DNA from: Halobacteriales archaeon QS_9_70_65
Lineage (GTDB): Archaea; Halobacteriota; Halobacteria; Halobacteriales; Haloarculaceae
Assembly (NCBI GenBank): GCA_003023535.1
Contig: PXSC01000199.1
Coordinates: 1 to 26,015, forward strand
Reading direction: 5' to 3'
DNA: 26,015 bases
A program made the translations under genes and the position numbers. Of this stretch, positions 4,265-25,612 are shown in pieces; position 1 is the first letter of the stretch, and every line of letters begins with the position of its first letter. The notes beneath the pieces were generated by a model. It saw only the letters and a list, made by a program, of their open reading frames with translations. It made no database searches and was not told where the DNA came from.

Positions 4265-5144
4265 ATGGACGGTCGGTACTCCGACTTCGAGGAACTGCGG
4301 CCGACCGGCGAGGCGTCCTACGTTCCGAAGACGAGACTGGACGACGAGTGTGATGGTGACCTCCGGCGGCAACGCATCGCGACGAGTTCCGGTGGCTACC
4401 CCGATGCGCCGGCGGCCACCGACGGCCGATGCCGGTCCTGTGGGGCGTCAGTCCCGGACGGCCGGACGAAATGCCGGGTCTGTCTCACCGACCATCTCGG
4501 GAGTGCCGCGATCGGCGCGGACGAGTCGGCGTCGACGACGCTCCTCGGCATCGTCCACCTGGTCGTCGAATCGATCACGTTCTACGGCGCCGTGGCGAAG
4601 GGCGGCGCCGCGGCGAACCTCCTCTCCGCCGACGAGGCGGAGCCGGCCGTCGACGACTACACGCTCATTTATGATCTCGACGAGGCGCCGGCGCGCCAGT
4701 TGGCCGAGCGATGGCTCCCACTTTCCGACGCGGTACAGGTGTCTCAGAGAAGGGAGAGCGGCTTCTCGGAGCCGCCCGTGACCGGACCGGGTGGCACGGG
4801 AAGGAAGCGTCGGAGCGTCAGGAGCAGCTCCTGACGCGGTTCTACGACCAGCGAGGGAACGACATCCGCGACGAGTCGCACCTCGAAGCGGTCCTCGACG
4901 ACGCCGACGACGTGGTACGGCTGGTTCCGGCGATGGCGCCGACCGAATCTCCCGGCTGGGGTGCGGCTGATCGCCGGGGTTCGTCGGTGCCGACGATGCA
5001 GGAACTCGACCGTCAAACCTGTGGACGGACGACCGACCATCGGTTCGAGACCCACGAGTCGGTTCCGGACGAGGCGTGGACGGGGCGACCGATCCGGGAG
5101 TGCCGGACGTGTGGTGCGGCTCGCTACGGACCGGGTTCGAGTAG
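4265..5144 (+). pseudogene. Frameshifted 'biosurfactant protein 1'-like zinc-ribbon protein
   Basis: ATG 4265 begins a readable haloarchaeal protein. It has a CRSCG...CRVC zinc ribbon (about 4434-4483) and a conserved core TTLLGIVHLVVESITFYGAVAKG. The frame then runs to YDLDEAPARQLAERW near 4710. Around 4741-4746 the conserved sequence moves to another frame, where SEKGERLLGAARDRT continues through to CRTCGAARYGPG near 5135. Inserting one base near 4743 would restore continuity. In the second zinc ribbon, ELDRQTCG has Arg where homologs I recall have Cys, so one ligand is lost. The expected stop is also out of frame: a TAG at 5142-5144 lies in the third frame. Family recognition is from memory ('biosurfactant protein 1' is a database name; biochemical function is uncertain). 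Decay is more likely than a single sequencing error. Confidence 0.6.
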
Positions 5145-5463
5145 GGACGGTGCCGGGCGTCGATCGATCGACAGCCCCGTAGGTAGATCCGAGTCTCGTC
5201 AGTCCACGGTTCCGGAGGACAGGCCAGCTTCGGGTCGGATCTCCGCTGGTTCGGGGCCCGATCTCCCGACGAAACGCTCGATTCTCGCCCACCCTGGACG
5301 AGATGACCGGGCGAGCACGGGGAATCGTCCGGATTTCGATGCCACCGGGGAGCATCGTCACTCCCGGGTGGAGAATCGGTCGCTCAGTCAAGTATCGATG
5401 CCGACGCGACGAGCTCGTGTACCCGCGCTGTGGCGCGCCGCACCGGCCGGGGGATTCGGTCGG
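5145..5463. other. Intergenic stretch without a recognisable gene
   Basis: Between the decayed zinc-ribbon gene and the iron-regulated promoter I recognise no gene. The frame of the pseudogene stays open through the whole stretch and into the next gene, but its translation is arginine- and serine-rich and looks non-coding. A 60-codon frame at 5303-5485 contains three cysteines near its end but no CxxC pair and no resemblance I know. Confidence 0.5.
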
Positions 5464-5504
5464 CCTAAAATGCGGAACCCTTTAGACCGATTAGGTGAGC
5501 CTAA
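5464..5504 (+). promoter_or_regulatory. Promoter with DtxR/IdeR-type iron box for the siderophore uptake operon
   Basis: The inverted repeat TTAGGTGAGCCTAA occupies 5491-5504, just before the ATG at 5510. TTAGG/CCTAA arms around four bases match the DtxR/IdeR/SirR metalloregulator operator consensus. A TATA-like TTTAGA at 5481-5486 sits about 25-29 bases upstream of the start, so the box lies between TATA and the probable leaderless transcription start, ideal for repression. A further CCTAAAA half-site is at 5464-5470. The same arms recur before the second binding-protein gene at 10618-10631. The regulator itself is not in the window. Confidence 0.7.
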
Positions 5505-5509
5505 ATCAT

Positions 5510-6670
5510 ATGCCGGGAGACGATGCGGCTCACGAGGCACCGACGCGCAGGGACTACGTGAAGTACGGCGGGGCGATCGTCGGTGGGGGTCTGCTCGCCG
5601 GATGCACGGAGAGCGGTGAACCGGAGTCGACGTCGACCGAGACGAGTACGAACACGGCGTCCCCTACCGAGGACGACGGTAGCTACACCGTATCGATGGA
5701 ACCCGTCGGCGATGTCGAATTCGAAAGCGTCCCCGAAACGTGGGTCGCCAACAACGGCAGCTGGGCCGACATGGGAATCGCGCTGGGCCAGGAACCACCC
5801 GAGGGGCTCTGGCTCACCGGCCGGTACCGTACCCGGTACTACGACGAAATTCCGGGCGTCTCCGTCGACGAGAGTGAAATAGCCGACCTCTACCGGGACG
5901 GTGTCAGCAAGGAACTCTTCTACGAACTCGACGGCGACGTCCACGTCATCGATCCGAACTTCCTGATGAACCGCTTCAAAGGCTGGGAGCGGGAAGACGT
6001 CGACGAGATCCGCGAGAACGTCTCGCCGTTCTTCGGGAACAGTATCTTCTCGCGAGGTTACCCATGGCACGAAAACTACCGGTACTACTCCCTGTACGAG
6101 GCGTTCGGAAAGCTGAGTCGGGTATTCCAACAGCAGGCCCGCTACGAATCGTTCGTATCGGTGCACGAGTCGTTCCAGGAGAACCTCGCACCCGTAGTTC
6201 CGGGGCGTAGTGACCGCCCGTCGGTGGCCGTCCTCTGGGCGAGTGGTGACCGACCGGAGACGTTCTTACCGTACGTCATCGGAGACGGGTCCAGTTTCAA
6301 GCACCTCCGCGATCTGAAACTCCGGGACGCGCTCGCGCGCTCCGACATCAAAGACTTCCACGCCGATCGCGGCGAGATCGACTACGAGACGTTACTCGAC
6401 ATCGATCCGGAAGTGCTTCTCCTCCGCGGCCAAGAAGCAAAATCGGCCGACGAGTTCGAGCAGACGGTCGTCGAATTCATGCGAAATCACGGTGTCGCGA
6501 GCGATCTCACGGCCGTCGAGAACGCTGCCGTCTACCGCGCGGGTGGCCTGTATCAGGGACCGATTACGAACCTCGTCCTGACCGAACGACTGGCGGCGAA
6601 CGTGTACGACGTCGACGAGGAACTCTTCGACCGACAGCAGGTCGCGGACATCGTCAACGGCGATATCTGA
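5510..6670 (+). CDS. Iron(III)-siderophore ABC transporter substrate-binding lipoprotein
   Basis: This 386-residue exported protein captures ferric-siderophore (or a related chelate such as a cobamide) outside the membrane and delivers it to the FecCD-type permease downstream. A twin-arginine signal (TRRDYVKYGG, Arg13-Arg14) is followed by lipobox LLAGC, with lipidation Cys32. A Thr/Ser/Glu-rich linker precedes the binding domain, as usual for haloarchaeal lipoproteins. The mature part has the FepB/BtuF-like layout, including DIDPEVLLLRGQE and YQGPITNLVLTERLA. ATG 5510 was chosen over GTG 5495 because the paralog at 10612 begins at the matching distance before HEAPTRRD and because the GTG lies inside the iron box. 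It is first in an operon of four genes. Ligand identity is inferred from family and iron box. Confidence 0.88.
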   Translation: MPGDDAAHEAPTRRDYVKYGGAIVGGGLLAGCTESGEPESTSTETSTNTASPTEDDGSYTVSMEPVGDVEFESVPETWVANNGSWADMGIALGQEPPEGLWLTGRYRTRYYDEIPGVSVDESEIADLYRDGVSKELFYELDGDVHVIDPNFLMNRFKGWEREDVDEIRENVSPFFGNSIFSRGYPWHENYRYYSLYEAFGKLSRVFQQQARYESFVSVHESFQENLAPVVPGRSDRPSVAVLWASGDRPETFLPYVIGDGSSFKHLRDLKLRDALARSDIKDFHADRGEIDYETLLDIDPEVLLLRGQEAKSADEFEQTVVEFMRNHGVASDLTAVENAAVYRAGGLYQGPITNLVLTERLAANVYDVDEELFDRQQVADIVNGDI

Positions 6671-6672
6671 TC

Positions 6673-7332
6673 ATGGCTGTCGCCGAACCCGGACGGACAC
6701 CCGGGCACGACCACGACGTCGTCATCGCCGGCGGCGGCCCGGCCGGCTGCTCGGCGGGCGTGGTCTACGCCCGCGAAGGGCTCGACACGGTCGTCTTCGA
6801 CCGCGGGCGCTCCTCGATCCGGCGCGGTGCCCACCTCGAGAACTACCTCGGCTTCCCGGCGGGCGTCGACATCGAGACGTTCCGCGAGTTGATCCACGAC
6901 CACGCTGAGGCCGCCGAGGGCGTCGATCGGATCCGACGGAAGGCGAACCTGGACGACGAGTGTACCGACCGCGATCAGTGGATCGAGTGGTTCGGCGATC
7001 ACTACGGCGAGGACGCGCCGGTCGCGCCGGAATCCGACCGCTTCCGGCGGGTTCGCGAAACCTACACCGACGCCGAACCGTCGATGTACCTCCCGGACGA
7101 CGGGATCGATGAGTACGCGAAACGCGCCCACGAGACGCTGGCCGAGCGGCTGAATCCGTCCGCGGTCACCGCCGCATCCGAGAACGCTTCCGGGGGTGAG
7201 TCCGACGGAGTCGACGCCGAGAGTGCCGTCGACACACTCGGGTCGGATACGCTGCCCGACGCGATCGACGACGAGGCCATCACGGCGTACGTGATCGACC
7301 ACGGACTCGTGGAAGCGGGGGGACACCGATGA
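6673..7332 (+). CDS. FAD-dependent oxidoreductase of the thioredoxin-reductase fold, apparently lacking its centre
   Basis: Two bases separate this gene from the binding protein, and it overlaps the permease by four bases (ATGA), so it belongs to the iron uptake operon. The N-terminus has a Rossmann FAD-binding motif GGGPAG at residues 20-25, then VVFDRG and LENYLGFPAG as in thioredoxin reductase-like enzymes. After HDHAEAA (about residue 80) the sequence passes directly to RIRRKANLDDE...DRDQWIEWFGDHYGEDAPV. In homologs I recall, that is the C-terminal tail, reached after roughly a hundred more residues covering the NAD and second FAD segments. At 219 residues the protein is short, in frame, and probably unable to bind NAD(P)H normally. 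The intact family member could reduce ferric-siderophore inside the cell (inference). It could be a natural reduced variant or a deletion product. Confidence 0.65.
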   Translation: MAVAEPGRTPGHDHDVVIAGGGPAGCSAGVVYAREGLDTVVFDRGRSSIRRGAHLENYLGFPAGVDIETFRELIHDHAEAAEGVDRIRRKANLDDECTDRDQWIEWFGDHYGEDAPVAPESDRFRRVRETYTDAEPSMYLPDDGIDEYAKRAHETLAERLNPSAVTAASENASGGESDGVDAESAVDTLGSDTLPDAIDDEAITAYVIDHGLVEAGGHR

Positions 7333-8453
7333 GCGGCGAACCCGCCGCCGGCAGCGACCGGTCGACCGGTCCCCGCGACACCCGTCGGTTCGCCTGGCTG
7401 CTCGACCCGAAGCTCGTGACGACCGCGGTCGCGAGCCTCGTCGTCATCGTCGTCGCCGGGCTCGTCCAGGTGAGCTTCGGTGCCTACACGATGAGCATCG
7501 GGCAGGCGTGGGCGGCCGTGTTCGATCCCGACGTGATCCTCAACCGGCGGGCGTGGAACGCGTTTCTGCTGGGCGGGGAGATGCCGGAGATGGGCAGGGA
7601 GAGTCTCATCGTCTGGAACATCCGTCTGCCTCGCGTGTTCGTCGGGGCGATCGTCGGGATGAACCTCGCCGTATCGGGGGCGATCTTCCAGGCGATCACC
7701 CGCAACGAGCTGGCGAGTCCGTTCATCCTCGGTGTCTCCTCGGGTGCCGGACTGATGATCCTGCTCGTGCTCGTCGTCTTCGGCGGCCTGGCGGTTTTCC
7801 TCCCGCTGATCGCTGCGCTCGGTGGGGCAGCAGCGTTTTTGATCGTCTACGCGATCGCGTGGAAGAACGGCACGTCACCGGTCAGGCTGGTGCTCGCAGG
7901 CGTCATCGTCGGGAGCGTCTTCAACAGCGTCCAGACGGCGCTGTTTTTCTTCGCCGACGACATCGGTATCGTCCAGTCGGCCATCGCGTGGACGACCGGG
8001 TCGCTGACGGGCACGGACTGGGAACAGGTGCGGATGGCGCTCCCGTGGTCGTTCGTCGCGATCCTGCTTTCGATCGCCGGGGCGAGACAGTGTAACGTGA
8101 TGCTGCTCGGCGAGCAGACCGCGAAGTCGCTCGGGATGTCGATCGAGAGGGTCCGCTTCGCGCTCTCGGGCGTCGCCGTTCTGGCGGCCGCGGCGTCGAT
8201 CGCGGTCGCGGGCATCGTCGGGTTCGTCGGCCTCATCGTCCCGCACATGGTGCGAAACACGGTCGGCAGCGACTACAGGAAGGTGATCGTCGGCTGTCTG
8301 TTCGTCGGCCCCGCACTGATGGTCGGCGCGGACGTCGGCGCACGGCTCGCGCTCAACCCGGTTCAGATCCCCGTCGGAATCGTCACCGGGCTGGTCGGCG
8401 GGCCGTACTTCCTGTATCTGATGCGCAGGAAACGGAACATGGGTGAGATCTGA
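7329..8453 (+). CDS. FecCD-type ABC transporter permease for iron-siderophore uptake
   Basis: A 374-residue inner-membrane permease of the FecCD/BtuC/FepD family. After an N-terminal cytoplasmic stretch of about 35 residues there are some nine to ten hydrophobic segments. Family signatures are visible: NIRLPRVFVGAIVGMNLAVSG followed by NELASPFILGVSSGAG, and later GIVGFVGLIVPHMVR, which contacts the ATPase. Its start overlaps the stop of the FAD protein (ATGA) and its stop is directly followed by the ATPase ATG, indicating translational coupling. FecCD permeases usually act as homodimers or FecC/FecD pairs; only one permease is present, so a homodimer is expected. No break is visible. Confidence 0.92.
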   Translation: MSGEPAAGSDRSTGPRDTRRFAWLLDPKLVTTAVASLVVIVVAGLVQVSFGAYTMSIGQAWAAVFDPDVILNRRAWNAFLLGGEMPEMGRESLIVWNIRLPRVFVGAIVGMNLAVSGAIFQAITRNELASPFILGVSSGAGLMILLVLVVFGGLAVFLPLIAALGGAAAFLIVYAIAWKNGTSPVRLVLAGVIVGSVFNSVQTALFFFADDIGIVQSAIAWTTGSLTGTDWEQVRMALPWSFVAILLSIAGARQCNVMLLGEQTAKSLGMSIERVRFALSGVAVLAAAASIAVAGIVGFVGLIVPHMVRNTVGSDYRKVIVGCLFVGPALMVGADVGARLALNPVQIPVGIVTGLVGGPYFLYLMRRKRNMGEI

Positions 8454-8454
8454 G

Positions 8455-9378
8455 ATGGCACGCGACACCACGGAGACACGGCGACGTGACGGAAGCGAAA
8501 AACCAGTCTCGAACGGGTCGACCGCCGAACCCGACGGCTCGGAAGCGAGCGAGCTGTCGGGAGAGGGGCTGGTTCTCCGCTATCCGTCGACGGACGAACC
8601 GGTTATCGACGGCGAGCGACTCGTTGCGACACCGGGGGCGGTCACCGCACTCGTCGGGCCGAACGGCTCCGGCAAGAGCACGCTGTTGAAAGGGCTCGCC
8701 GAGCAACTCGTGCCCGACGACGGCACGGTACTGTTGGACGGCCGGGACGTCCACTCCATGGGAACGAAGGAGCTGGCTCGCAGGCTCGGGTTGCTCTCCC
8801 AAGAGAGCACGTCGCCGGAGTCGATCACCGTCGAAGACCTCGTCTACCACGGCCGGTATCCCCACCGCGGGTTCTTCGAGATCACCACCGAAGAGGACGT
8901 GGACGCGGTCGACCGGGCCATCGACCTCGCCGGCTGTGGCCACCTCCGCGACCGCGAAGTCGGCAGCCTCAGCGGCGGGCAAAAACAGCTCGCGTGGATC
9001 GCGATGGTGCTCGCACAGGACACCGACGTGCTGTTGCTCGACGAGCCGACGACGTTCCTCGATCTCCACCACCAGTTGGAGGTCATGGAGATCGTCGAAA
9101 CGCTGCGCGACGAGAGCGACATCACCGTGGTGGTCGTCCTCCACGACATCGAACAGGCGGCGCGGCTGGCCGACGAGATGGTCGCGCTCAAGAACGGCGC
9201 GATCCAGGCACGCGGGACACCCGAGGAGGTGGTCACCGAGGAGTTGCTCGCGGACGTGTTCGAGATCGACGCCGAGGTCGACGCCACCGAGCGCGGGCCA
9301 CGAGTCACGCCGCTTCGGGCGCGGCACGACGCCGAAGAAGCCGAACGCTCTCCGGCGGATGCGTCCGAGGCTGAGTGA
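8455..9378 (+). CDS. ABC transporter ATP-binding protein for iron-siderophore uptake (FepC type)
   Basis: This 307-residue ATPase powers the FecCD permease. Visible motifs: Walker A GPNGSGKST (68-76, Lys74), Q-loop region LLSQEST, signature LSGGQ (172-176), Walker B VLLLDEPT with Asp196-Glu197, and the H-loop His230 in VVLHDIEQA. An N-terminal extension of about 35 polar residues precedes the domain. The C-terminal GTPEEVVTEELLADVFEIDAEV is characteristic of FepC/FecE-like ATPases. ATG 8455 sits one base after the permease stop; an in-frame GTG at 8443 is less likely. It is the last gene of the operon. The region behind it (9379-9569) separates it from a convergent gene. Confidence 0.92.
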   Translation: MARDTTETRRRDGSEKPVSNGSTAEPDGSEASELSGEGLVLRYPSTDEPVIDGERLVATPGAVTALVGPNGSGKSTLLKGLAEQLVPDDGTVLLDGRDVHSMGTKELARRLGLLSQESTSPESITVEDLVYHGRYPHRGFFEITTEEDVDAVDRAIDLAGCGHLRDREVGSLSGGQKQLAWIAMVLAQDTDVLLLDEPTTFLDLHHQLEVMEIVETLRDESDITVVVVLHDIEQAARLADEMVALKNGAIQARGTPEEVVTEELLADVFEIDAEVDATERGPRVTPLRARHDAEEAERSPADASEAE

Positions 9379-9569
9379 CGGCCGATCTGCTCGACACGGA
9401 CGGCTCGAGAGGCGAATCGGTGCCGGCAGCGTCCTGACCGGGGAAGCTATCGACCGGAAACCGGAAGTCGGTGTCGACCCACTCCGTCGTGTGCATCTCC
9501 GAGCCGTTCGTGACCAACCTGTACCGACCGGCCCACCGATCCCCGGACGGCCGGACGATCGAGAGCCGG

Positions 9570-10612
9570 TCAGGCCTCTCCGTTGATGATGTCCGCGACG
9601 CGTTGCCGGTCGAACAGTTCGTCCTCGGTGAACTCGTCGTCGAAGATCCGCCGGGCGGCTCGTTCAGTCTGGAAGAGGTTGATGATCGGGCCTTGATCGA
9701 GGTAGCCACCCTGGTAAATCGCGCCGTTCCGGACGGCGGTCAGTTCGCTCCCTACCGTGTGTTCTTCCAGTGGTGTGACGACGTGTTCCTCGAAGGCCGC
9801 CCGATCACGCTCCTCTTGGCCGCGGATCAGCAACACGTCCGGGTCGATGTCGAGCAGTGTTTCGAAGTCGACCTGCAGGCTCGTGTCGGCCGAGTAGTGG
9901 CCCACGTCGGTCCCCTCGAAGGCGTCGCGCAACCGCAGGTCCCGCCACTGCTTCTTGCCGACGCCGCCGTCGTAGAGCTGGTAGGGGTAGAACGTCTCGG
10001 GGGTCTCGTCGGCCGGGTACAGTAGCGTCGCTTCCGGGGTCTCCTCGGGCAGTCGCTCCTGCAAGTTCGACAGGAATTCGTCGTGAAAGGACCTGAACTG
10101 TCGGTAGCGCTCCTCGCGTCGGAACACCTCGGCGATCCGTTCGAACGCCCCGTACAGCGAGTAGTACGGATAGTCGTGCCACCCGTCGCTGCGCCGCCGA
10201 ATGAAGTTCCCGAAGAACGGCCCGACGTTGCGCTCGATTTCCTCGATGTCGCTCTCGTCCCAGTCGTACCAGTGGATCAGCTGGTTCGGCTCCATGAGGT
10301 GGACGTCGGCGTCGATCTCGTAGAACCGCTCCTTGTCGACGCCGTCCTGATCGAGGGTCGTCACGGCGTCGGGATCGTACTCGACGCCGGGAAGCTCGTC
10401 GTAAAAGTGGCCGGTGGTCCGTCGAAAGTAACCGGTCCCATCGGTTCCATCGAGACGGAGTAGCTTTCCTCTTCCGCGTTCTGGGTCGGTGTCGACCGGG
10501 GGTCCGACTGCCCGGCACACCCGGCGAGCAGTCCACCGCCGACGACCGCGCCGCCGTACTTGATCGCGTCTCGCCGCGTCGGTGCCTCGTGGGTCGCCGA
10601 CCCGTCTACCAT
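9570..10612 (-). pseudogene. Second iron-siderophore substrate-binding lipoprotein, broken by an internal deletion
   Basis: The gene is a paralog of the binding protein at 5510. The ATG is at 10612, with Tat motif THEAPTRRD (Arg13-Arg14), lipobox LLAGC (Cys32) and VSMEPMG. The conserved body, from FYDELPGVEYDPD to the end LFDRQRVADIINGEA, lies in another frame. From the shared MEP motif to the shared DE-PG motif I count 162 nt in the paralog but only 65 nt here, so 97 nt are missing and the frame is lost. The join lies within about 10380-10440. The rest is intact, so the loss is recent or artefactual. The gene converges on the operon and carries its own iron box. If expressed as is, only a signal-peptide fragment would be made. 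Confidence 0.8.
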
Positions 10613-10617
10613 ACGTT

Positions 10618-10641: not shown

Positions 10642-11452
10642 TCCATCGAAATAATCCGACTCGGTCACCGCCGGGGGACGGTTCGGACGCTGGTCGGCTG
10701 CCGTCGAGCGAGGCGGCGACCGCGACTGTCCCGACGACGACAGCGGCGATGGCGTAAAAAATAGCGCGGACACCGACGTCACGGAAAACACCAGCGAGGG
10801 CGGGGTGCGAGGACCGATGTCGGCTTCCAGAGGATGCTGCGGAGCGACAGTAACGTGACGGCCCGCGAGGCGGCTCCGGCCTCAGCGAACAGCACGACGC
10901 TCGCGGGGATTCGACGAGCGTCGGTGAGGCCGAACAAGGCGGCACAGGCGGTCGGGGTTTCGAGCGAGCCCGCGAGCGGGCGGCCGCCGCGCGAGGACAC
11001 CACAGCGAACGCAGTGAGCGAAGCGCGCGGTAAGATGCGACGCGTTCTGACGACACTGCCGGACCACGTCCGGCAGGCGGCCGGAATCCGACGGATTCCG
11101 GCACCGTCACGAGAGAGCTCCGCTCTCTCGAACGACGGCGAGCAGTAGCGAGGCGCCGAGCGAGGCGAGGGGCCTCGGACTGGCGAACGGCGTCCTCGCG
11201 AGTGAAACGAACGAGGGCTCGGCAGAGCGTCGCTCTGCCGGCGAGCCCCGCGAGCCGTGAGCCGCGCGACCGGAGCCGGCCGAGGGATTTCGAGGTTCGT
11301 ACCTCGAGTCGACAATTACCACCACGAACCGTCCCGTACGCTCCCTACCTCGGCCGATTCGGGGTGGCGGACTACAGGGCGTGCGGTGTTTTCTATTACG
11401 GGCGGGAACCGCCAACGGAGGATATTTCCACTCCCTCGCCCTTTCTTCGTAC
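10642..11452. other. Non-coding, hairpin-rich intergenic region of about 0.8 kb
   Basis: No recognisable gene. Open frames exist on both strands but are arginine-, serine- and proline-rich. A minus frame near 10640-10800 contains one hydrophobic stretch (AIFYAIAAVVVGTVAVAA), with no start or family resemblance. From about 11056 the sequence is dense in short perfect hairpins, listed separately. The region marks the change from the lower-GC left part to the higher-GC right part. Just before the next gene, a GATATTTC at 11421-11428 may serve as TATA box for the ATG at 11453. Confidence 0.55.
11056..11240. repeat. Cluster of hairpins with 9-bp stem and 3-nt loop
   Basis: Four perfect hairpins each span exactly 21 bases, with a 9-bp stem and a 3-nt loop. 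They are at 11056-11076 (stem CTGCCGGAC, loop CAC), 11081-11101 (CCGGAATCC, loop GAC), 11110-11130 (CGAGAGAGC, loop TCC) and 11220-11240 (CGGCAGAGC, loop GTC). Weaker hairpins lie at 11161-11177 and 11290-11307. A fifth 9-3-9 hairpin is at 15718-15738. Stem sequences differ, though several share an AGC-NNC-GCT core. They could act in transcription termination or RNA stability, or be relics of a dispersed repeat family. Confidence 0.7.
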
Positions 11453-12476
11453 ATGTACGACTTCGTCGTCGTGGGCGCGGGGCCCGCGGGCTCGCGGTTC
11501 GCCCGGTCGGCAAGCGGGCGGGACCACGACGTGCTCGTTCTGGAATCGGGCGAAATCGGCCGGCCGCTGGCCTGTTCGGGCCACGTCAGCCGCGACGTCT
11601 GGGAGTTCGTCCCCGACGACGCCCGCGACCGCCTCCTCCAGAACGAGGTGGCCGGTGTCGAACGTCATCGACCGGGTCGGCCTCGACAGGACCCTCGCCG
11701 ACCGCGCCCGCGAGGCCGGCGCCGAGGTCCGCGACGGCCACACCGTCACCCGGGTCGATGAGGGCCCCGACGGCGTCGCGGTGACCGCCCGCGGGCCCGA
11801 CGGCACCGAGTCCTTCGAGGGCCGGATGGTCGTCGGCGCGGACGGCCCGCGGTCGAAGGTCCGCGACGAGGTGGGCCTGCCGGAACCCGACGAACTGCTG
11901 CACGGCGTGCTGGGATTCGAGGACGGCGCCGACGACGGGGACCGCGTCGACGTCCACCTCACCGTCCCGCGGTTCTTCGCCTGGCGCATTCCGCGCGGCG
12001 ACGCCGGCGCCGAGTACGGGCTGGCGGTCGCGCCGGGCGACGACGCCCCCGGCCGGTTCGAGGCGCTGTTGGACGACTACGGCGTCGACGTCGAGCGGCG
12101 CTGCTCGGGTGCCATCCCCATCGGCCCGCCGGACCGGACCGTCGGCCGCCGGAGCCTGCTGGTCGGCGACGCCGCCGCCCAGACCAAGCCGTTCACCGGC
12201 GGCGGCATCCTCTACGGGATGCGCGCGGCGGATATCGCCGCCCGCGAGGTCGACCCCCGCCGGCCCGCGACGCTGGACGACTACGAGCGGGCCTGGCGCG
12301 AGGAACTACGGACCGACCAGCGGCTCGGCAGCCTCGTCCGGGCCGGCTACTCGATGCCCGAACCCGTCCAGCGGGCCGGGCTGCGGGCGTTCAGCGGCGA
12401 GATCGCCGTCCACATGGACCGGCCGACGTCGCTGTTCTCGCGAGCGCAACTGCGGGCGCTGCTGTCGTGGGGCTGA
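11453..12476 (+). pseudogene. Geranylgeranyl reductase-family FAD oxidoreductase with an internal frameshifting deletion
   Basis: ATG 11453 starts MYDFVVVGAGPAGSRFA, an FAD-binding Rossmann motif (GAGPAG, residues 8-13), and runs in frame through ACSGHVS and VPDDARDRLLQNEVAG to about 11656. The rest of the protein, from SNVIDRVGLDRTLADRAREAGAEV to the stop at 12476, is in another frame. It includes the second FAD motif LVGDAAAQTKPFTGGGILYGM. Homologs I recall have about twenty residues between these parts, so a short stretch is missing at about 11651-11660. The family reduces geranylgeranyl chains of archaeal lipids or menaquinone-related substrates using FAD. Apart from the one join, both parts read as conserved protein. 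A TATA-like box about 29 bases upstream suggests a leaderless start. Confidence 0.75.
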
Positions 12477-12513
12477 TCGTGGAACTGACGTGCGCCCGCG
12501 CTGTGCCGCGCAT

Positions 12514-14137: not shown

Positions 14138-15694
14138 ATGGGAGGTGACTACACCCGGCGAGCGCTCCTCCACCTCGCCGCGACGACGGGCATCGTTCCC
14201 GCCGCCTCCGGCACCGGAGCGGCGGCTCCGGTCGGCGGTGATCGGGGGACGGACGCCGACGAGGAGTACCTCGAGCGGGAGTTCCGGAACTTCGCGAAGA
14301 CGATGGAGGCGCCGGCCGAGCAGACCTCCGACCCGGGGTTCATGCGCCGCTGGCAGGCCCGGAGCCGGAAGAACGGCCGGCGGTACGCCGAGCGCGTCGC
14401 GGCCGAACCCGGCTGGCGGAGCCACGCCAACCTCTGTGCGACGTGGAGCGAGCAGTGCACCGGCGACCCCGCCCTCTATCGCGACGTCGACGACCGGGGG
14501 TTCTACGGCGCCGTCGGCGAGCGCCGCCGGGTGGCCTTCTACGACCGGCAGGGTGCGCGGCTCTCCGGTCACCTGTGGACGCCGGTCGAGGCGAGCGGGA
14601 GGGACGGAGAAGGGCTGCCGGGGGTCGTCGTCACCGACGGCTCCGTGCAGGCGCCGGAGCCGCTGTACTGGTGGGCCGCCCAGTCGCTCGTCGCCGCCGG
14701 CTACGTGGTGCTGACGTACGACCCGCGGGGGCAGGGTCGCTCCGACAGCGTCACGCCGGACGGCGACCGCGGCGGCAACGCCGACGCCGACGTGTTCGTC
14801 TCCAACCAGGTCGACGCCGTCGACTTCCTCCGGTCGACGCCCGAGGAGCCCTACGCGCCGAACGCGGAGTACGACCGCGGCGACGGGGCGCCCGTCGAGC
14901 CGTACGACCCGGCCGCCGGGCTCTTGGACCGCTCGCGGGTCGGGATCGCCGGCCACTCGGCGGGTGCCGTCGGCGCCAGCATCGTCCAGGGGCTGGAGCC
15001 GTGGCCGACCGGCGGCGACAACCCCGTCGACGCCGTCGTCGCCTGGGACAACCTCGGCGACGGCGAGGCGCTCGCCGCCCGCCGACCGGAGCGGGAGGCC
15101 GAGGACCTGGCGACGCTGCTGGAGACGGTCCCCGACGGCGGGGTCGAGCCGCGGGTCCCCGCGATGGGCCAGGCCGGCGACTACTTCCTGACGCCGCGGC
15201 CGCACGTCGAGCCGCCGGACCCGGACGCCAAGTCGGTCGGCTTCGAGCGGTGGCGCGCCGCCGACGTCGACGCCTACCAGCTGGTCGTCCGCGGCGGCAC
15301 CCACTACGAGTGGTCCCGGACGCCGACGTTTCCCGCCACCTCCTGGGGGTTCGGCAACGCGCTGGCGGACTACTACACCGTCGCGTGGTTCGACCGCTGG
15401 CTCAAGCGACCGTCGGAGCCGGGCTACGACGACGCCGACGCCCGGCTGCTGGCCGACGACGAGTGGGGCGACCACCTCAGCTTCCACTACTGCTCGCGAC
15501 GGGCCTTCGAAGGGCGCGACGGCCGCGAGCACGTCTGCGAAGAGGGAGTAGTGTTTAGTGGGGGAGGAATAGCGTCTTTCGGCGGTGATGACGGCGTTTC
15601 CGAACGCCCCCGCCCGCTCGCTTCTTTACGAGGTCTCCTTCGCTGCGCTCGCTCGTCCTCGCCGTCTCCGGCAATCGGCGATTTCCGGGAGTGA
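14138..15694 (+). CDS. Tat-exported alpha/beta hydrolase with a doubtful C-terminus
   Basis: A 518-residue secreted serine hydrolase. The N-terminus carries a twin-arginine signal (DYTRRALLHLAATTG). The alpha/beta-hydrolase core includes YDPRGQGRSD, the nucleophile elbow GHSAG with Ser274, and a likely catalytic His389 in GGTHYEWS. The substrate is unknown; carboxylic ester or peptide-like bonds are possible. ATG 14138 was preferred to GTG 14111 because the Tat motif then sits near the N-terminus and GTG 14111 lies in the inverted repeat. After REHVCE, near 15545, the translation becomes Gly/Ser/Arg-rich and reads into hairpin DNA before the stop at 15694. The natural stop may therefore be lost. 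The gene diverges from gnd. Confidence 0.8.
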   Translation: MGGDYTRRALLHLAATTGIVPAASGTGAAAPVGGDRGTDADEEYLEREFRNFAKTMEAPAEQTSDPGFMRRWQARSRKNGRRYAERVAAEPGWRSHANLCATWSEQCTGDPALYRDVDDRGFYGAVGERRRVAFYDRQGARLSGHLWTPVEASGRDGEGLPGVVVTDGSVQAPEPLYWWAAQSLVAAGYVVLTYDPRGQGRSDSVTPDGDRGGNADADVFVSNQVDAVDFLRSTPEEPYAPNAEYDRGDGAPVEPYDPAAGLLDRSRVGIAGHSAGAVGASIVQGLEPWPTGGDNPVDAVVAWDNLGDGEALAARRPEREAEDLATLLETVPDGGVEPRVPAMGQAGDYFLTPRPHVEPPDPDAKSVGFERWRAADVDAYQLVVRGGTHYEWSRTPTFPATSWGFGNALADYYTVAWFDRWLKRPSEPGYDDADARLLADDEWGDHLSFHYCSRRAFEGRDGREHVCEEGVVFSGGGIASFGGDDGVSERPRPLASLRGLLRCARSSSPSPAIGDFRE

Positions 15695-15738
15695 GCGGAT
15701 CGGAGATCCGCGATCTACGGAAGAGCTTCGCTCTTCCG
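15695..15738. repeat. Two hairpins directly behind the hydrolase stop
   Basis: Right after the TGA at 15692-15694 come a 7-bp hairpin (15695-15711, stem GCGGATC, loop GGA) and a 9-bp hairpin (15718-15738, stem CGGAAGAGC, loop TTC). The second has the same 9-3-9 build as the four at 11056-11240. They could act as a terminator, but no T-run follows. The GAGCTTCGCTC core is also seen at 104-118. Confidence 0.6.
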
Positions 15739-15929
15739 GGATGACGAACGACGGCGACGACGGCAGCGAGACGAGAGCAACGACGACGGCGGCAGTGGAA
15801 ACGACGAGAGCGGCGACGAGGGCGACGAGGGCGACGAGAACCGCAAAACGGACTTGAGAACCGACGCGACGTTTCGGCGCCCGTAACCCCCGCAGGGTAT
15901 AGGCCGCTGGGGGTCGAAGGCGTCGACGA
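15739..15929. other. Low-complexity GAC/GAG-rich tract and upstream region of the ABC genes
   Basis: About 15741-15850 consists of repeated GACGAC, GACGAG and GGCGACGAG units. One frame (about 15801-15890) reads as an acidic Asp/Gly/Glu tail (DDGGSGNDESGDEGDEGDEN), typical of haloarchaeal linkers, but it has no start or recognisable domain. It may be the tail of a lost gene or simple-sequence DNA. A GGTATAGG at about 15896-15903 could be the TATA box for the ATG at 15930. Confidence 0.45.
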
Positions 15930-16635
15930 ATGCCGGCCATCCAGACGCGGGCGCTGTCGAAGCGGTACGGCGACGTCGTCGCGCTCGATTCGCTGTCGCT
16001 GGCCGTCGGCGACGGCGAGTGCTACGGGTTCCTCGGGCCGAACGGCGCGGGCAAGTCGACGACGATCAACATCCTGACGGGACCCCGTCGAGACGCCGGT
16101 CGAGGCCCGCCGCCACGTCGGCATCCTGCCGGAGAGCGGCCGGCCGCCTTCCTTTCTGACCGTCCGGGAGTACTTCGAGTTCGCGGCGGCGACCCGCGAG
16201 CTCGACCCGGCGACGGCCGCCGACCGGATCGAGGCGTGGGCCGAGCGGCTGGAGTTCGCCCACAAGCTCGACACCCTCTGTACGGACCTCTCGCAGGGCG
16301 AACGCCAGAAGGTGCTCATCACGCAGGCGTTTTTCCACGAGCCGCCGGTGGTGTTCATCGACGAGCCGTTGACGAACCTCGACCCCATCATGCAGGAACG
16401 GGTCAAGGGGTTCTTCGAGACGTACCGGGCGGCCGGCAACACGCTGTTCCTGTCGACGCACTTCGTGGAGACGGCCGCCGAGGTGTGTACGCAGGTGGGC
16501 ATCATCAACCGGGGCCGGCTGTTGGAGGAGCTGCGGCCCCGCGGGATGGACGGCGACGCGCTGCTGGATCGGTTCTTCGCCGCCGTCGACGAGGACGTCG
16601 CCGAAGCCACCCTCGCGCGGTCGTCGACGGGATGA
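15930..16635 (+). pseudogene. ABC transporter ATP-binding protein with a frameshifting internal deletion
   Basis: ATG 15930 starts a normal ABC ATPase: [22 protein letters not shown], then Walker [10 protein letters not shown] (36-44, Lys42) and TTINILTG, ending at 16080. At 16081 the conserved sequence resumes in another frame with [20 protein letters not shown]. It continues through a signature-like LSQGE, Walker [14 protein letters not shown] and H-loop STHF to the stop at 16633-16635. Homologs have about 14 residues between LTG and DPV, so roughly 40-45 nt seem to be missing. The stop overlaps the permease ATG (ATGA), showing the two were coupled. The intact protein would drive the downstream membrane protein as an exporter. 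Without the missing segment, translation from 15930 continues out of frame into the permease frame. Confidence 0.8.
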
Positions 16636-18056
16636 CCTCGACGGGCTACCTGCTGCGGCTGATGGCCGTCGAGGAGTGGCGGCTCCGCAGCCACGTCTTC
16701 GGCGGCCGCCGGTTCGCGCTGTTCCCGCTGTTCGTCGCCGGCGTCGCCGCCGGGACGGCCGCCTTCTTCGGGCTGGCCGACGCCGACGCCGGACTACTTA
16801 TCGACGGCCTCCACCTCGTCGTCGCCGCCCTCGGCCTGCAGGTCGGCACCGTCGGGCTCGTCGGCCGCGACGCCCTCGAGGACCTGCTCGGGGAGACGGC
16901 GCTGCTTCTGTTCTCCGCCCGGGCCCTCCCCGTCGAGCCCCGGAAGCTCCTCGTCGCCTTCCTCGTCAAGGACGTCGCCTTCTACGCGGTGCTGTTCCTG
17001 CTGCCGCTGACGGTCGGGTTGGTCCCGCTGGTCGTGCTGGCGGACGTGCCGGCGGCGCGGCTGCCGCTGCTGTTCGGAACGACGGTCGGCGTCTTCGCGG
17101 TCGGCGTCGCCGCCAGCGTCGCGCTGGTCGGCGTCCACACCCGCTCGCGGCTGGCTTCGACGGCCGTCGCGGCCACGACCGTCGTCGCGCTCGTCGTCGA
17201 CGGCGGCCGCCTGCTGTCGGTCACCCCCTACGGGCTCCTGTCGGGCGTCACCCCGGCGGCGGTCGCCGGCAGCCTCTTCCTGCCGGTCGGGCTCGGCGCC
17301 GTCGGGGTCGCGCTGTTCCGGTTCGACCGCCGGACGCCGACCCGGACCGCCGAGAACCGCTTCGGCCGGCTCCGCGGCCGGCTCGGCGACGCCGACGGCC
17401 AGGGGCTGCTGGCGAAGTCGCTACTCGACGTCGTCCGGTCGTCGGGCGGGCTCTGGAAGGTGGTCTTCTCCCAGGGGCTCGTCTTCGCCGTGCTGGCCGT
17501 CCTGCTCGCCTTTCTCCCCGACGTCGTCCCGATCCGCCTCGAACCCGGCCTCACCGTCGCCGGCGTGCTCGCGCTGGGGTCGTTCACCACGTACAACTGG
17601 CTCTGTCAGTTCGACGACACCGGCTTCTACCTCCGGTATCCGGTCGCGCTGTCGGCGGTGTTCCGGGCGAAGCTGCTCGGCTTCTGTCTGCTGGCGCTGC
17701 CGTCCGGGCTGGCCTTTCTCACGCTCGGCGGGCTCGTTTTCGGCACCGGGACGATGCTGGTCGGTATCGCCGTCTTCGCGCCGCTGTCGCTGTACGTCTT
17801 CGGCGTCACCGCCTACGTCGCCGGCCTGGAGCCGACGGAGCTGCTGTTCGACACGCCCGTGTTCGCGGCGTTCACGCTGGCGATGATGATCGTGCTGGTT
17901 CCGCTGGTGGTCGCGGCCATCGTCTTCGAACTGTGGCCGGCCGGTCTCGCGGTCGGCAGCGTCGTCTACGCGTCGCTGGCCGGCGGCGTCGGCCTCGTGC
18001 TCTACCGCCGGGCCGGACCACGCTGGGAGCGGCTGGCGCTGACCGGCGACGCCTGA
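16632..18056 (+). CDS. ABC-2-like transporter permease, haloarchaeal exporter type
   Basis: A 474-residue integral membrane protein with roughly ten to twelve hydrophobic segments and very few charged residues inside them. It opens with a cytoplasmic elbow-like region ([31 protein letters not shown]). The loop [24 protein letters not shown] before a transmembrane helix is typical of the permeases paired with DrrA-like ATPases. ATG 16632 overlaps the stop of the ATPase gene, fixing the start and showing an operon. The substrate cannot be inferred. Its 3' end overlaps the convergent Agl23-like gene by 55 bases. The gene itself looks intact although its partner is broken. Confidence 0.8.
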
Positions 18057-19996: not shown

Positions 19997-20026
19997 CGGG
20001 ACCGTCTCACGCGGGGACGGTAGCCG

Positions 20027-21514: not shown

Positions 21515-21556
21515 ACAGGACCGGGCTGGCGGGCCGGCCGCGGCGCCACCGTGTCG

Positions 21557-22672
21557 TCACCACGCCCGCGATTCGGCGACCCGACGGTAGACGTCGGTAC
21601 ACCGCTCGACGGCGTCGAGGGAGACGCTCTCGGTCGCGGTGTGGGCCTCGCCCGGCTCGGCGGCGCCGCAGACGACGCAGGTCGCCCCCGCCCGTCGGGC
21701 CAGCCAGCCGGCGTCGGTGGCGTGCGGCTTGACCACCGCCTCGGGCGTTCCCGGCTGGGCAGCGTCGGCCGCCTCGATGACGGCGTCGGCGAAGGCCGAC
21801 TCGTCGCAGGCCATCGGCGGGAGGTCCTGGTCGACCGCGACGGAGACGCCCGGAATCGCCTCGACGGCCCCGAGGTCAGCGCGCTCTCCCGGTACCGTCC
21901 GCTCGTCGACGGTGACCGTACACCGCTCGGGGACGACGTTCCAGCCGTCGCCGCCGTCGATTTCGGTGACGACGACGCTACCGGCGAGGTCGTGGCCCAG
22001 CACCTCGGTTCGGGGTGCGTCGGCGGCCCGGACCAGGTCGACGGCCTCCGTCGCCCGGTAGATGGCGTTGGCGCCGGCCTCCGGTTCGCTGGCGTGGGCG
22101 GCCTCGCCCTCGGCCTCGACGGTCACCGCGCGGCGGCCCTTGTGGGCGACGGCGACGTCCGTGATCCTCTTTCCGGAGTACCCGGTCGACCCCTCGCCGA
22201 CGACGGCGTAGTCCGGCGCGAAGCCGTCCTCGACCGCGGCGCGACAGCCGACGCCGCCGGACTCCTCGCCGACGAAGGAAGCGAAGACGAGTTCGCCGGC
22301 CGGCTCGGCGTCCCGGAAGGCGACCATCGCCGCCGCGAGACTGCCCTTCATGTCGGCGGCCCCGCGGCCGTACAGTCGGCCGTCCCGCTCCTCGAGGGCG
22401 TAGTCGTCGCCGTCGCGCTGGCCGTCGTCGGGCGCGACGACGTCGTGGTGGCCGACCAGCGCCAGCGACGTTCCGGCGCCGGCGTTCCGGCGGGCGACGA
22501 CGTTGCCGGCGTCGTCGCGGGCGACGGCCGCGTCGGCGTGGTCGGCGAGCCAGGACTCGATCAGGTCGCCGGCCGCCGTCTCGTCGTCGTGGCTGGGCGT
22601 CGCGACGAGCCGGCGGGTGAGTTCGCGGGCCGTCATCGACGGGACGACGGGAGCGAGCGGGTTCACTGTCAC
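21557..22672 (-). CDS. M20-family metallopeptidase / deacylase (ArgE-DapE-ACY1 type)
   Basis: A 371-residue cytoplasmic di-zinc hydrolase that cleaves N-acyl amino acids or small peptides. Metal ligands fit the family pattern: His75 and Asp77 in GHHDVV, Asp107 in GRGAADMKG, Glu136-Glu137 in GEESGG, and Glu160 in VVGEGS. A dimerisation lid lies between, starting around KGRRAVTVEAEGEAAHASEPEAGANAI with its conserved His. The start at 22672 is the first ATG; a second ATG at 22636 (MTARELTRRLVATPS) would remove twelve residues and also fits family length. It diverges from the PIN-ATPase gene and leads the M32 carboxypeptidase gene. The substrate (acetylornithine, succinyl-diaminopimelate, dipeptide) cannot be assigned. 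Confidence 0.85.
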   Translation of the reverse strand: MTVNPLAPVVPSMTARELTRRLVATPSHDDETAAGDLIESWLADHADAAVARDDAGNVVARRNAGAGTSLALVGHHDVVAPDDGQRDGDDYALEERDGRLYGRGAADMKGSLAAAMVAFRDAEPAGELVFASFVGEESGGVGCRAAVEDGFAPDYAVVGEGSTGYSGKRITDVAVAHKGRRAVTVEAEGEAAHASEPEAGANAIYRATEAVDLVRAADAPRTEVLGHDLAGSVVVTEIDGGDGWNVVPERCTVTVDERTVPGERADLGAVEAIPGVSVAVDQDLPPMACDESAFADAVIEAADAAQPGTPEAVVKPHATDAGWLARRAGATCVVCGAAEPGEAHTATESVSLDAVERCTDVYRRVAESRAW

Positions 22673-22751
22673 GGCTCATGGGGCCGGGGTCGCGTCGTCG
22701 GCGACGGGTCGCGTCCCTCGCCGCGGCCGGCGGACGCCCCTCGCATCACCG

Positions 22752-22759
22752 TATTTATA
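22752..22759 (+). promoter_or_regulatory. TATA box for the PIN-ATPase gene
   Basis: TATTTATA at 22752-22759 is a strong archaeal TATA element in otherwise GC-rich DNA. It lies about 25-32 bases before ATG 22784, so the transcript is probably leaderless. This spacing supports the choice of start. Confidence 0.65.
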
Positions 22760-22783
22760 CGCGTCGACCTCCCTACGTCGGGT

Positions 22784-25612
22784 ATGGAGATTCTGCCGGA
22801 CACGAGCGCGGTCGTCGACGGCCGCGTGTCGGAGCGCGTCGAGACGGCGGGCTTCGACGGCACCGTCTACGTCGCCGAGGCCGTCGTCGGCGAACTCGAG
22901 GGCCAGGCCAACGACGGCCGCGAGGGCGGCTGGGACGGCCTCGAAGAGCTCCAGCGGCTCGCCGACTTCGCCGACGACGGCGACATCGACGTCGAGTACG
23001 TCGGTCGTCGGCCGGACGCCGCCGAGCGGTCGGGCGCCGGCGAGGGCGACGTCGACGCGCTCATCCGTGGACTGGCCGCCGACCACGGCGCGACGCTGCT
23101 GACGAGCGACGTCGTCCAGGCGGAGGTCGCCGAGGCCAAGGGGCTGTCCGTCGACTACGTCGAGCCCCGGACCGACGACGCCGGCGACGACGATGGGCTC
23201 GCCGTCGAACGGTTCTTCGACGAGCGGACGATGTCGGTCCACCTGAAGACGGGGGTGCCGCCGAAGGCCAAGCGCGGCGCCGTCGGCGAGATGAGCTACC
23301 AGGCCCTCGAGGACGACCCGCTGGAGGAGGCGCGAATGCGGTCGTTCGCCGACGACGTCGTCGAGACGGCCCGCGCCTCCAGCGACGGCTTCGTCGAGCT
23401 GTCGCAGCCGGGGATGACCATCGCCCAGGTGCGGGACCTCCGGATCGCGGTCGCGGAGCCGCCCTTCGCCGACGGCGTCGAGGTGACCGCCGTCCGGCCC
23501 ATCGTCAAGACCGACCTCGACGACTACGCCTTCGCCGACGAGCTCCGCGACCGGCTGGCCGAGCGGAACCGCGGCGTCCTCATCTCGGGGTCGCCCGGCG
23601 CCGGCAAGTCGACGTTCGCCCAGGCCGTCGCCGAGTTCCTCGACGACGCCGACTTCGCCGTCAAGACGATGGAAAAGCCCCGCGACCTCCAGGTCGGGCC
23701 GGAGATCACCCAGTACACCGAGTTGGGCGGGTCGATGAAGAACACCGCCGACTCGCTGCTGATGGTCCGGCCGGACTACACCATCTACGACGAGGTGCGG
23801 AAGACGTCGGACTTCGAGACGTTCGCGGACATGCGGCTGGCCGGCGTCGGGATGATCGGCGTCGTCCACGCCACGCGGGCCATCGACGCCCTCCAGCGGC
23901 TCGTCGGCCGGGTCGAGCTGGGCATGATCCCGCAGGTCGTCGACACCGTCGTCTACGTCGAGGCCGGCGAGATCGACACCGTCTACGACGTCGCCACGGA
24001 GGTGAAGGTGCCGCACGGGCTCACCCAGGACGACCTCGCCCGGCCGGTCATCGTCATCCAGGACTTCGAGACCGGCACGCCGGCCTACGAGATATACACG
24101 TTCAACCGGCAGGTCGTCACCGTCCCGCTGGAGGGTGCCGACGGCGCGGGCGACGACACCGGCGTCGAGCGCGTCGCCAAACAGGAGATCGAGCGGGAGA
24201 TCCGGTCGGCGGCCCGCGGCCACGTCGAGGTCGAGCTGCGGGGACAGAACGAGGCCGTCGTCTACGTCGAAAACGACGACATCAGCTACGTCATCGGCAA
24301 GGGCGGCGGCCGCATCGGCAAGATCGAAGACCGCCTCGGCATCAGCATCGACGTCCGGACGTTCGACGACCGGCCGGGCGGCGCCTCCGGCGGCGGTGGC
24401 GGCTCCGGGGGCGCCGCCGGCGAGGTCGTCGTCCCGGAGGTGACCGACCGCCACGTCGTCGTCCCGCTGGACGACCACCACGGCGAGACCGTCGAGGTGC
24501 GGGCCGACGACGAGTACCTCTTCACCGCGACCGTCTCCCGCGGCGGCGAGATTCAGGTGTCGCGGGGCTCCACGCACGCCGTGGCCGCATCGCGGAGGGA
24601 CGCGGCCCTCCGGCGCCGCGTCTCACCTCTCGGCCTCGAGTCGGACGAACGCGATACAGGCGACCCAGCCGTCGCCGGCGGGGTCCGGGGTGCCGAGTTC
24701 AGCGGCGTACCGTCCGGGGTCGAGGTCGGGGTCCGATCGGACGGACTCGACCGCCTCGAGGAGCGACCAGGAGCGGGTTCCGCCGGGCGTCACGGTCGCC
24801 TCTCCGTCGCCGGCGGTCTCGCGGTCGAGTTCCGTCCACCCGTCGCCGCCGTCGTGGTGGACGCGCCAGCTGTGGGGGTTGAACGAGAACTCCACGTCGG
24901 ACCGGTCGTGGAGGGTCAGCGTCACCTCCTCGGCGGGTGTCCCGTCGTCGAGGCGGCTCCGCTCCGGCGTCGCCGCGAGGAAGACGCCCGCGTCGCGCTC
25001 GACGGTGTGCGAGCAGACGGCTCTGTCGCGGGTCGTCTCGAAGGGTGGACACCGCCGGGCTTCGGCGGTCGGGGTCGGCTCCGTCCCGTCGGAGTCGGTC
25101 GGCGCGCCGTCCGGCGCGTCGTCGCCGCCGGCCGGGGCACCGGTACAGCCGGCGGCGAACTCCAGGGTCGGCAGAGCGGCGAGAAGCCTTCGTCGGTTCA
25201 TACTTCGAACGACGGACCGAAGCGACGAGCACGTTCGGGTGGCGCAAAGAGCCGGTTGACCCTCGGCGACGCGGGACGGTACGCTTGCCAGTGCAGGCAG
25301 TCGTACGGAGAGCGACGGTCAGTCGTCGGAGACGGCCGCGTCGGTCCCGTCGGCGGCGGCGTCGACCGACGTCTCGATCTCGTAGAGGTTCTGGCGCGCG
25401 TCGGCGAAGTAGACGTCCTCGGTGACGATGTCGATCTCCTCGAGTCGCTCGAGGGCGTAGCGGACGGTTCTGGGTCATCGGGCCGTTGTACTCGAGCACC
25501 TTGTAGACGAGCTTCGCACTTGGCGGGAGGTCCGAGAGTTCTTCCCCGTCAGAATCGGCCATCTGTGCTAATTCACACGCAAGGCTCGGGAATAAGCTTT
25601 GACCCCAACTAG
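22784..25612 (+). CDS. PIN domain - ATPase - KH protein, with its natural stop apparently lost
   Basis: The recognisable protein runs from MEILPDTSAVVDGRV to EIQVSRGS, ending near 24571 (596 residues). An N-terminal PIN domain (acidic Asp6, about residues 1-125, ending TLLTSDVVQAEVA) suggests metal-dependent RNase activity. A PilT/VirB11-like ATPase follows, with Walker A GSPGAGKST (269-277, Lys275) and Walker B-like DYTIYDEVRK. Near the C-terminus is a KH-type RNA-binding segment with GKGG at 505-508, then a glycine linker and a small beta-rich tail. This architecture is an established, poorly characterised archaeal family. Homologs end soon after this point. Here no frame has a stop near, and the reading frame continues another 346 codons, antisense to the lipoprotein and the regulator, to 25612. 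That extension looks non-native. A strong TATA box precedes the start. Confidence 0.8.
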   Translation: MEILPDTSAVVDGRVSERVETAGFDGTVYVAEAVVGELEGQANDGREGGWDGLEELQRLADFADDGDIDVEYVGRRPDAAERSGAGEGDVDALIRGLAADHGATLLTSDVVQAEVAEAKGLSVDYVEPRTDDAGDDDGLAVERFFDERTMSVHLKTGVPPKAKRGAVGEMSYQALEDDPLEEARMRSFADDVVETARASSDGFVELSQPGMTIAQVRDLRIAVAEPPFADGVEVTAVRPIVKTDLDDYAFADELRDRLAERNRGVLISGSPGAGKSTFAQAVAEFLDDADFAVKTMEKPRDLQVGPEITQYTELGGSMKNTADSLLMVRPDYTIYDEVRKTSDFETFADMRLAGVGMIGVVHATRAIDALQRLVGRVELGMIPQVVDTVVYVEAGEIDTVYDVATEVKVPHGLTQDDLARPVIVIQDFETGTPAYEIYTFNRQVVTVPLEGADGAGDDTGVERVAKQEIEREIRSAARGHVEVELRGQNEAVVYVENDDISYVIGKGGGRIGKIEDRLGISIDVRTFDDRPGGASGGGGGSGGAAGEVVVPEVTDRHVVVPLDDHHGETVEVRADDEYLFTATVSRGGEIQVSRGSTHAVAASRRDAALRRRVSPLGLESDERDTGDPAVAGGVRGAEFSGVPSGVEVGVRSDGLDRLEERPGAGSAGRHGRLSVAGGLAVEFRPPVAAVVVDAPAVGVERELHVGPVVEGQRHLLGGCPVVEAAPLRRRREEDARVALDGVRADGSVAGRLEGWTPPGFGGRGRLRPVGVGRRAVRRVVAAGRGTGTAGGELQGRQSGEKPSSVHTSNDGPKRRARSGGAKSRLTLGDAGRYACQCRQSYGERRSVVGDGRVGPVGGGVDRRLDLVEVLARVGEVDVLGDDVDLLESLEGVADGSGSSGRCTRAPCRRASHLAGGPRVLPRQNRPSVLIHTQGSGISFDPN
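24593..24612. terminator. Hairpin between convergent genes
   Basis: CGGAGGG (24593-24599) pairs with CCCTCCG (24606-24612) around a six-base loop. It lies just after the last recognisable codons of the PIN-ATPase and 11 bases beyond the minus-strand lipoprotein stop. Its place suggests a shared terminator or convergent-gene barrier; there is no T-run. Confidence 0.35.
24623..25201 (-). CDS. Predicted Tat lipoprotein with a possible BsuPI-like beta domain
   Basis: A 192-residue exported lipoprotein. The short signal has three arginines (MNRRRLLAALPTLEFAAGC), ending in a lipobox-like AAGC with Cys19. A Thr/Asp/Pro-rich linker follows. The mature domain contains EEVTLTLHDRSDVEFSFNPHSWRVHHDGGDGWTEL and a later PGRYAAEL strand. 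The pattern resembles bacterial BsuPI/immunoglobulin-like domains in other exported proteins, from memory. Four cysteines in the mature part (for example CPPF, VCSH) might form disulfides. Function unknown. It lies on the same strand downstream of the broken regulator. The long plus-strand reading frame across it is taken to be spurious because this frame has a full signal peptide, linker and domain. Confidence 0.7.
   Translation of the reverse strand: MNRRRLLAALPTLEFAAGCTGAPAGGDDAPDGAPTDSDGTEPTPTAEARRCPPFETTRDRAVCSHTVERDAGVFLAATPERSRLDDGTPAEEVTLTLHDRSDVEFSFNPHSWRVHHDGGDGWTELDRETAGDGEATVTPGGTRSWSLLEAVESVRSDPDLDPGRYAAELGTPDPAGDGWVACIAFVRLEAER
25319..25562 (-). pseudogene. Winged-helix transcription regulator missing its central helix region
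   Basis: The ATG at 25562 reads MADSDGEELSDLPPSAKLVYKVLEYNGPMTQ, the conserved start of a MarR/TrmB-like haloarchaeal winged-helix regulator. At about 25469 the conserved sequence jumps to another frame: TVRYALERLEEIDIVTEDVYFADARQNLYEIE, ending VSDD and TGA at 25319-25321. In homologs I recall, about twelve residues join these parts (helix two and the start of the recognition helix), so about 35 nt appear to be missing. The wing and C-terminus are perfect. The palindrome and TATA-like element upstream suggest self-regulation. As it stands no functional DNA-binding protein could be made. Confidence 0.75.

Follow-up and report, generated by a model that had tools for sequence, protein, structure and literature searches.

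The window analysed here is a stretch of 26,015 nt of haloarchaeal, high-GC DNA (69.3%) from Halobacteriales archaeon QS_9_70_65, and among its genes are those for a zinc-ribbon protein, an FAD-dependent oxidoreductase, a second binding protein, a geranylgeranyl reductase, an ABC ATPase, a PIN-ATPase and a winged-helix protein. It was aligned with 20 loci from nine relatives and then with eight further loci. The closest genome compared is G001 (the metagenome-assembled genome, MAG, QS_8_69_73), with 29% of the window's sampled 31-mers common to both; the other relatives include G012 (MAG QS_4_69_225), G015 (MAG QH_7_69_31), G008, a MAG of the same genus from another project (JAHENN), and Natronomonas gomsonensis (G016), which is also of the same genus as the window.

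Clean joins in conserved genes of the window

An earlier note on this DNA had proposed that at least six genes, the PIN-ATPase apart, each lack a short segment at a single point between intact flanks. Comparison with relatives confirms a loss from the window sequence for five of the six named, each at one clean join, and reduces the sixth, in the zinc-ribbon gene, to a frameshift of 1 nt. The positions are as follows.

4743, forward strand: zinc-ribbon gene, 1-nt frameshift near here, no segment loss
6903 to 6921, forward strand: join in the FAD-dependent oxidoreductase gene (6673 to 7332), about 378 nt (126 codons) missing in frame
10409 to 10411, reverse strand: join at 10410/10411 in the second binding protein gene (9570 to 10612), 98 nt missing
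11650 to 11651, forward strand: join in the geranylgeranyl reductase gene (11453 to 12476), 62 nt missing relative to insert-free relatives, probably about 206 nt with a repeat insert
16080 to 16082, forward strand: join in the ABC ATPase gene (from 15930), 44 nt missing after 16081
24571 to 24572, forward strand: join in the PIN-ATPase gene, 3' end and stop removed, fused to the convergent gene
25467 to 25471, reverse strand: join in the winged-helix gene, 35 nt missing after 25468

In the case of the ABC ATPase, where a short loss had been predicted at 16080/16081, the missing segment is present in all five relatives aligned there (G001, G012, G008, G017 and G015, the gap relative to the last being split into 33 and 9 nt), and the best protein match (P0122), which is G012's own protein, is intact and 98% identical. 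The winged-helix segment, whose loss had been placed at about 25469, is kept by all six relatives aligned there (G001, G012, G008, G015, G017 and G003); the winged-helix piece gave no match to proteins at E ≤ 0.001. The second binding protein, already thought to be shortened, lacks the equivalent of L033 5938-6035 of G012, which is the sole close relative that aligns across the join. For the FAD-dependent oxidoreductase, with a loss suspected at about 6910, the deficit lies between 6904 and 6921 and amounts to 378 nt relative to G003 and G011, 384 nt relative to G052 and 439 nt relative to G055, and it is seen at the protein level too, where intact homologs have 307-327 residues. The segment loss suggested at about 4743 in the zinc-ribbon gene did not hold, as window positions 4048-5146 align with G012 (L036) over 1101 columns with three gap columns and a net difference of 1 nt, the gene being one open frame in G012 and two in the window.

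The PIN-ATPase had been described as lacking its stop, and the stop is indeed gone, though not alone, since the whole 3' tail is cut at 24571. The conserved tail and stop are found in seven of the eight relatives checked, whereas the window jumps at this point into the convergent gene; G001, the eighth, has its own jump in this region, with end points that differ from the window's. The pieces missing from the window are ordinary conserved coding sequence, with lengths of 35, 44, 62-206, 98 and about 378 nt, and of the five genes for which the loss was measured, four have their frame broken by it. Substitutions private to the window, sorted by codon position, were few in the broken pieces and carry no weight here. 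Two further differences were not counted as joins, a 39-nt in-frame difference near 7781, where the window is shorter than G017, and a frame-breaking loss at the end of the reductase gene (12476) that is seen relative to G001 and is absent relative to G012.

Inserts in the reductase gene and other sequence features

The reductase loss, anticipated at about 11655, was located at 11650/11651, where all seven relatives read have extra sequence, with a net excess of 62 nt in G012, G008 and G017, more in G014 and G019, 194 nt in G015 and 206 nt in G001. Among 120 listed matches to the C-terminal part of the reductase, the best is a 409-residue protein from ENA (P0002). It is 99% identical to the window over all 274 residues of this part, agrees with it at 65 of the 66 positions that precede the join and is open across the join, and it exceeds the usual 361 residues by 48, with an insert that resembles that in G001. 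An intact protein with a G001-like insert suggests that the piece missing from the window is probably about 206 nt and holds the repeat; what the loss at 11650 conceals is probably an in-frame insertion of a repeat, of the kind met again in the reductase gene of several lineages.

These in-frame inserts (L031 3042-3247 among them) are rich in Arg, Glu, Ala and Ser and occupy two sites in several lineages, one after FHLGG (P0002, P0008, P0026 and P0043; about 20-50 residues) and the other after W-E/D-F-x-P (P0016, P0017 and P0019; about 9-36 residues). In an alignment of 12 reductases picked mostly by length, seven have an insert and five have none. At the DNA level, the repeat core (22 nt, two mismatches allowed) occurs in 10 of 20 same-genus genomes, with 10 copies in G001 and none for the reversed control, and QS_4_69_225 has a second, truncated N-terminal part of the reductase with the same repeat (L032 17193-16700) about 1.2 kb upstream of the intact gene. 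The in-frame repeats look like real biology. A different in-frame insert, of about 449 residues, is found in RNA polymerase A' of QS_4_69_225 (L131 7940-9287), just before CPPYNADFDGDEM, and is absent from G017; from its ends and site we take it to be a putative intein.

Elsewhere in the window, positions 1-150, 11023-11296 and 15545-15755 match many places in G001 and G012 and are dispersed lineage repeats, and positions 683-718 hold 36 nt of short tandem repeat that is absent from both genomes. A tRNA-Thr (cgt) called by ARAGORN at 17005-17093, on the same strand as the long open frame that contains it (15930-18056), is probably a false positive.

Losses in sister MAGs and in other haloarchaeal genomes

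Losses of the same kind occur in the relatives themselves. G001 lacks window positions 12199-12270 and 16302-16375, G015 lacks about 12078-12166 and 23913-24037, and G014 lacks about 11998-12096, all of these pieces being present in the window and in G012 or G008, and in the window and its relatives alike the losses are private to each assembly and lie at differing places. RNA polymerase A' of QS_4_69_225 has lost about 114 nt, which shifts its frame, while the five of five relatives aligned there (G017, G019, G014, G003 and G011) keep the segment; this is an indispensable gene, affected in one case among nine polymerase loci of MAGs with QS or QH names (QS/QH MAGs).

Pairwise comparisons left out alignments below 250 bits and, in the classing of indels, also breaks whose shorter side had over 15 unmatched nt. 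In the 147.9 kb compared between G001 and G012, which are 94% identical there, 47 indels of at least 15 nt were counted. The missing bases are on the G001 side in 37 of these, 22 of them spanning 59-128 nt, and on the G012 side in 10 (p = 1e-4). Under strict classing by codon usage, which leaves 34 of the 47 as noncoding or unclear, there are five frame-breaking losses in G001 and none in G012, and the 14 isolate pairs, with 192.3 kb compared, have none of at least 15 nt (p = 0.016). The lack of such losses in G012, a MAG attributed to the same study as G001, counts against assembly error as the cause. By the same method the window has one to two frame-breaking losses per close relative in 13-21 kb, more than chance would give and with the event at 12476 among them, and G008 has none relative to 13.4 kb of the window, which is a small control. 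A cruder classing by GC3 phase, which flagged a 107-nt loss (L111/L112) and a frame-breaking gain (L096/L097) in 15 isolate pairs, was set aside as too strict, and the codon-usage version (14 pairs) repeated neither of these isolate events.

Rates were then obtained by counting frame changes relative to conserved isolate proteins around the PIN-ATPase and around RNA polymerase, with tblastn matches of less than 45% identity or fewer than 20 residues dropped and at least two reference proteins demanded per event. Around the PIN-ATPase, 76 of 80 loci from QS/QH MAGs, other MAGs and isolates were used (L125, L126, L127 and L129 are not haloarchaeal and were excluded), in-frame losses were left out, and the window was counted apart, with one loss of 62 nt in the 5.5 kb covered; a polymerase match was found in 9 of 14 QS/QH genomes. 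The QS/QH MAGs have four frame changes in 75.7 kb around the PIN-ATPase (14 loci), all of them losses (53, 83, 115 and 131 nt), and one loss of 116 nt in 83.1 kb around the polymerase (nine loci). Other MAGs have no frame changes in 103.4 kb (18 loci) and 152.1 kb (17 loci), respectively, and isolates have six in 334.1 kb (44 loci) and three in 117.7 kb (10 loci), of which eight of nine are 1-4 nt and one is 10 nt. For losses of at least 10 nt, the counts are five in 158.8 kb for QS/QH MAGs, none in 255.5 kb for other MAGs and one (10 nt) in 451.8 kb for isolates, so that the QS/QH MAGs hold five of six in 158.8 of 866.1 kb (p = 0.001; p = 0.008 relative to other MAGs alone), with the caution that three of these five are special cases, L051 (G001) and L130 (G015) as the events from which the idea arose and L120 through its position at an N-run. 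In-frame gaps of at least eight residues around the polymerase were seen at one place in QS/QH MAGs and at seven in other MAGs. The losses in L116 and L120, the latter being the one at the N-run, are in QS/QH MAGs of other lineages, but the most affected genomes (the window, G001, G014 and G015) form one clade, which leaves the effects of clade and pipeline separated only in part.

Two contigs show other irregularities. In an isolate of Halarchaeum acidiphilum, one 12-kb contig has five frame changes (L115 5396-9416), mostly of 1-4 nt, and these are ordinary sequencing errors. In QS_9_67_17, about 32 residues of the PIN-ATPase are repeated upstream in another frame near the contig end (L101 729-3203), and this duplicated piece is probably another assembly chimera.

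Origin of the joins and what they mean

Four runs of N occur in the QS/QH loci. One (116 N) is outside the sized set, and the three of three that could be sized fall short of the true gap, the shortfalls being 73, about 53 and 141 nt. The 82 N in G015 should be 73 nt longer according to each of six genomes (G014, G001, G012, G017, G008 and G019) and 82 nt longer according to G003; for 169 N in L120, the median shortfall is 53 nt (range 32-92) in 38 protein pairs; and where G001 has 19 N, G012 has 160 nt. These shortfalls are similar in size to the clean losses.

The earlier note had weighed three causes of the joins, namely short segments dropped by the assembly, microdeletion at a high frequency and the excision of elements, and the first of these is borne out by the occurrence of private losses in MAGs of one pipeline and hardly anywhere else, the damage to an essential gene, the undersized N-gaps and the near-identical intact protein. 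We therefore conclude with high confidence that the joins with lost segments arose as local errors in the assembly of a MAG from short reads. The software step responsible is probably the mis-sizing of scaffold gaps, although on this point our confidence is clearly lower. In such a scheme, contigs would end at low coverage, strain variation or repeats and would then be linked by read pairs, and the scaffolder would underestimate the gap, in the typical case by some 35-140 nt. A positive estimate would yield a run of N shorter than the true gap, and with an estimate of zero or below the contig ends would be abutted or trimmed and the segment lost without N. Contigs between which IDBA estimates a distance of zero or less are abutted or trimmed, and by this behavior an underestimated gap would become a clean loss.

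The methods passages of a study of Atacama salt crusts (Finstad et al. 2017, PMC5532433) describe sites Sw, Qh and Qs, HiSeq2000 2x100 Illumina reads, a library of 600-1000, 13 PCR cycles and IDBA_UD scaffolds. By our reading of the site names, the QS_ and QH_ MAGs belong to this study, and from kinship we infer that the window's own assembly came from the same IDBA_UD Atacama pipeline. The joins resemble the IDBA-UD metagenome scaffold errors treated by Chen et al. (2020, PMC7111523), where the consensus of short-read scaffolds is wrong at single points and where local assembly errors are suspected to be especially common with IDBA-UD, but the passages concerned do not describe clean 35-140 nt losses without N or undersized N-runs. 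They also share with the 1-2 nt frameshift errors of some isolate assemblies, such as L115, the breaking of conserved genes in public records, although those errors are of 1-4 nt and clustered, and here whole segments are missing.

Ordinary scattered decay was rejected as a cause. Frequent small deletions in the lineage, which would leave many recent pseudogenes, are very unlikely. The joins do resemble ordinary small-deletion pseudogenes in having one deletion per gene, clean and with conserved flanks, and losses are found in several same-genus genomes. They differ from such pseudogenes in that an essential RNA polymerase subunit is affected in a relative, every loss is private to one assembly and near-identical intact copies exist; moreover, N-gaps are undersized by like amounts, G008 has no losses over its 13.4 kb, and losses occur in unrelated QS/QH MAGs (L116). 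The ends of the losses were also compared, using a set of 45 distinct rows (35 of them of 30-150 nt) and 525 controls for overlap. For a short direct repeat at the ends of the 35 losses, the median overlap is 1 nt compared with 0 in controls (p = 0.10), and the microhomology that was to be looked for amounts to 0, 0, 1 and 3 nt at the four window joins measured, which, together with the varied length and ordinary coding content of the pieces, argues against microdeletion. Overlaps of at least 5 nt are nonetheless found in 5 of the 35 losses and in 5 of the 525 controls, suggesting the possibility that a minority are real deletions between short repeats. Two causes of drop-out considered for the lost segments were rejected, GC content because it is slightly lower in the losses than in controls (0.69 and 0.71, p = 0.048) and hairpins because the folding of the segments is like that of controls (p = 0.27).

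Likewise very unlikely is that an Atacama salt-crust clade of haloarchaea truly loses segments of 35-400 nt genome-wide at a very high rate. Such loss could be tolerated because haloarchaea carry many genome copies, each broken copy being one of many, and if this were true the consensus of different populations would pick up different lesions. Defined elements that are excised or skipped, such as introns, inteins or hop elements, would give single clean joins, and the clade does have in-frame repeats as well as an insert that resembles an intein, but the missing pieces are conserved coding sequence of 35 to about 378 nt with no common length or ends and leave the frame broken in four of five genes, making this reading of negligible probability. 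The idea that homologs naturally lack the segments and nothing was lost fits only the zinc-ribbon gene, which matches its homolog in G012 in length to within 1 nt, and can be dismissed almost entirely for the set, since in the other five genes the segment is present in every relative aligned across the join.

The pieces were most likely lost in short-read assembly, and the joins are accordingly a warning about data quality and not new biology. MAGs of this kind serve as species representatives in public sets, and a broken gene in one of them, such as that for RNA polymerase A', can be mistaken for a pseudogene, for gene loss or for a sign of low completeness. A simple test for such assemblies is the joint presence of clean 35-140 nt losses and undersized N-runs.
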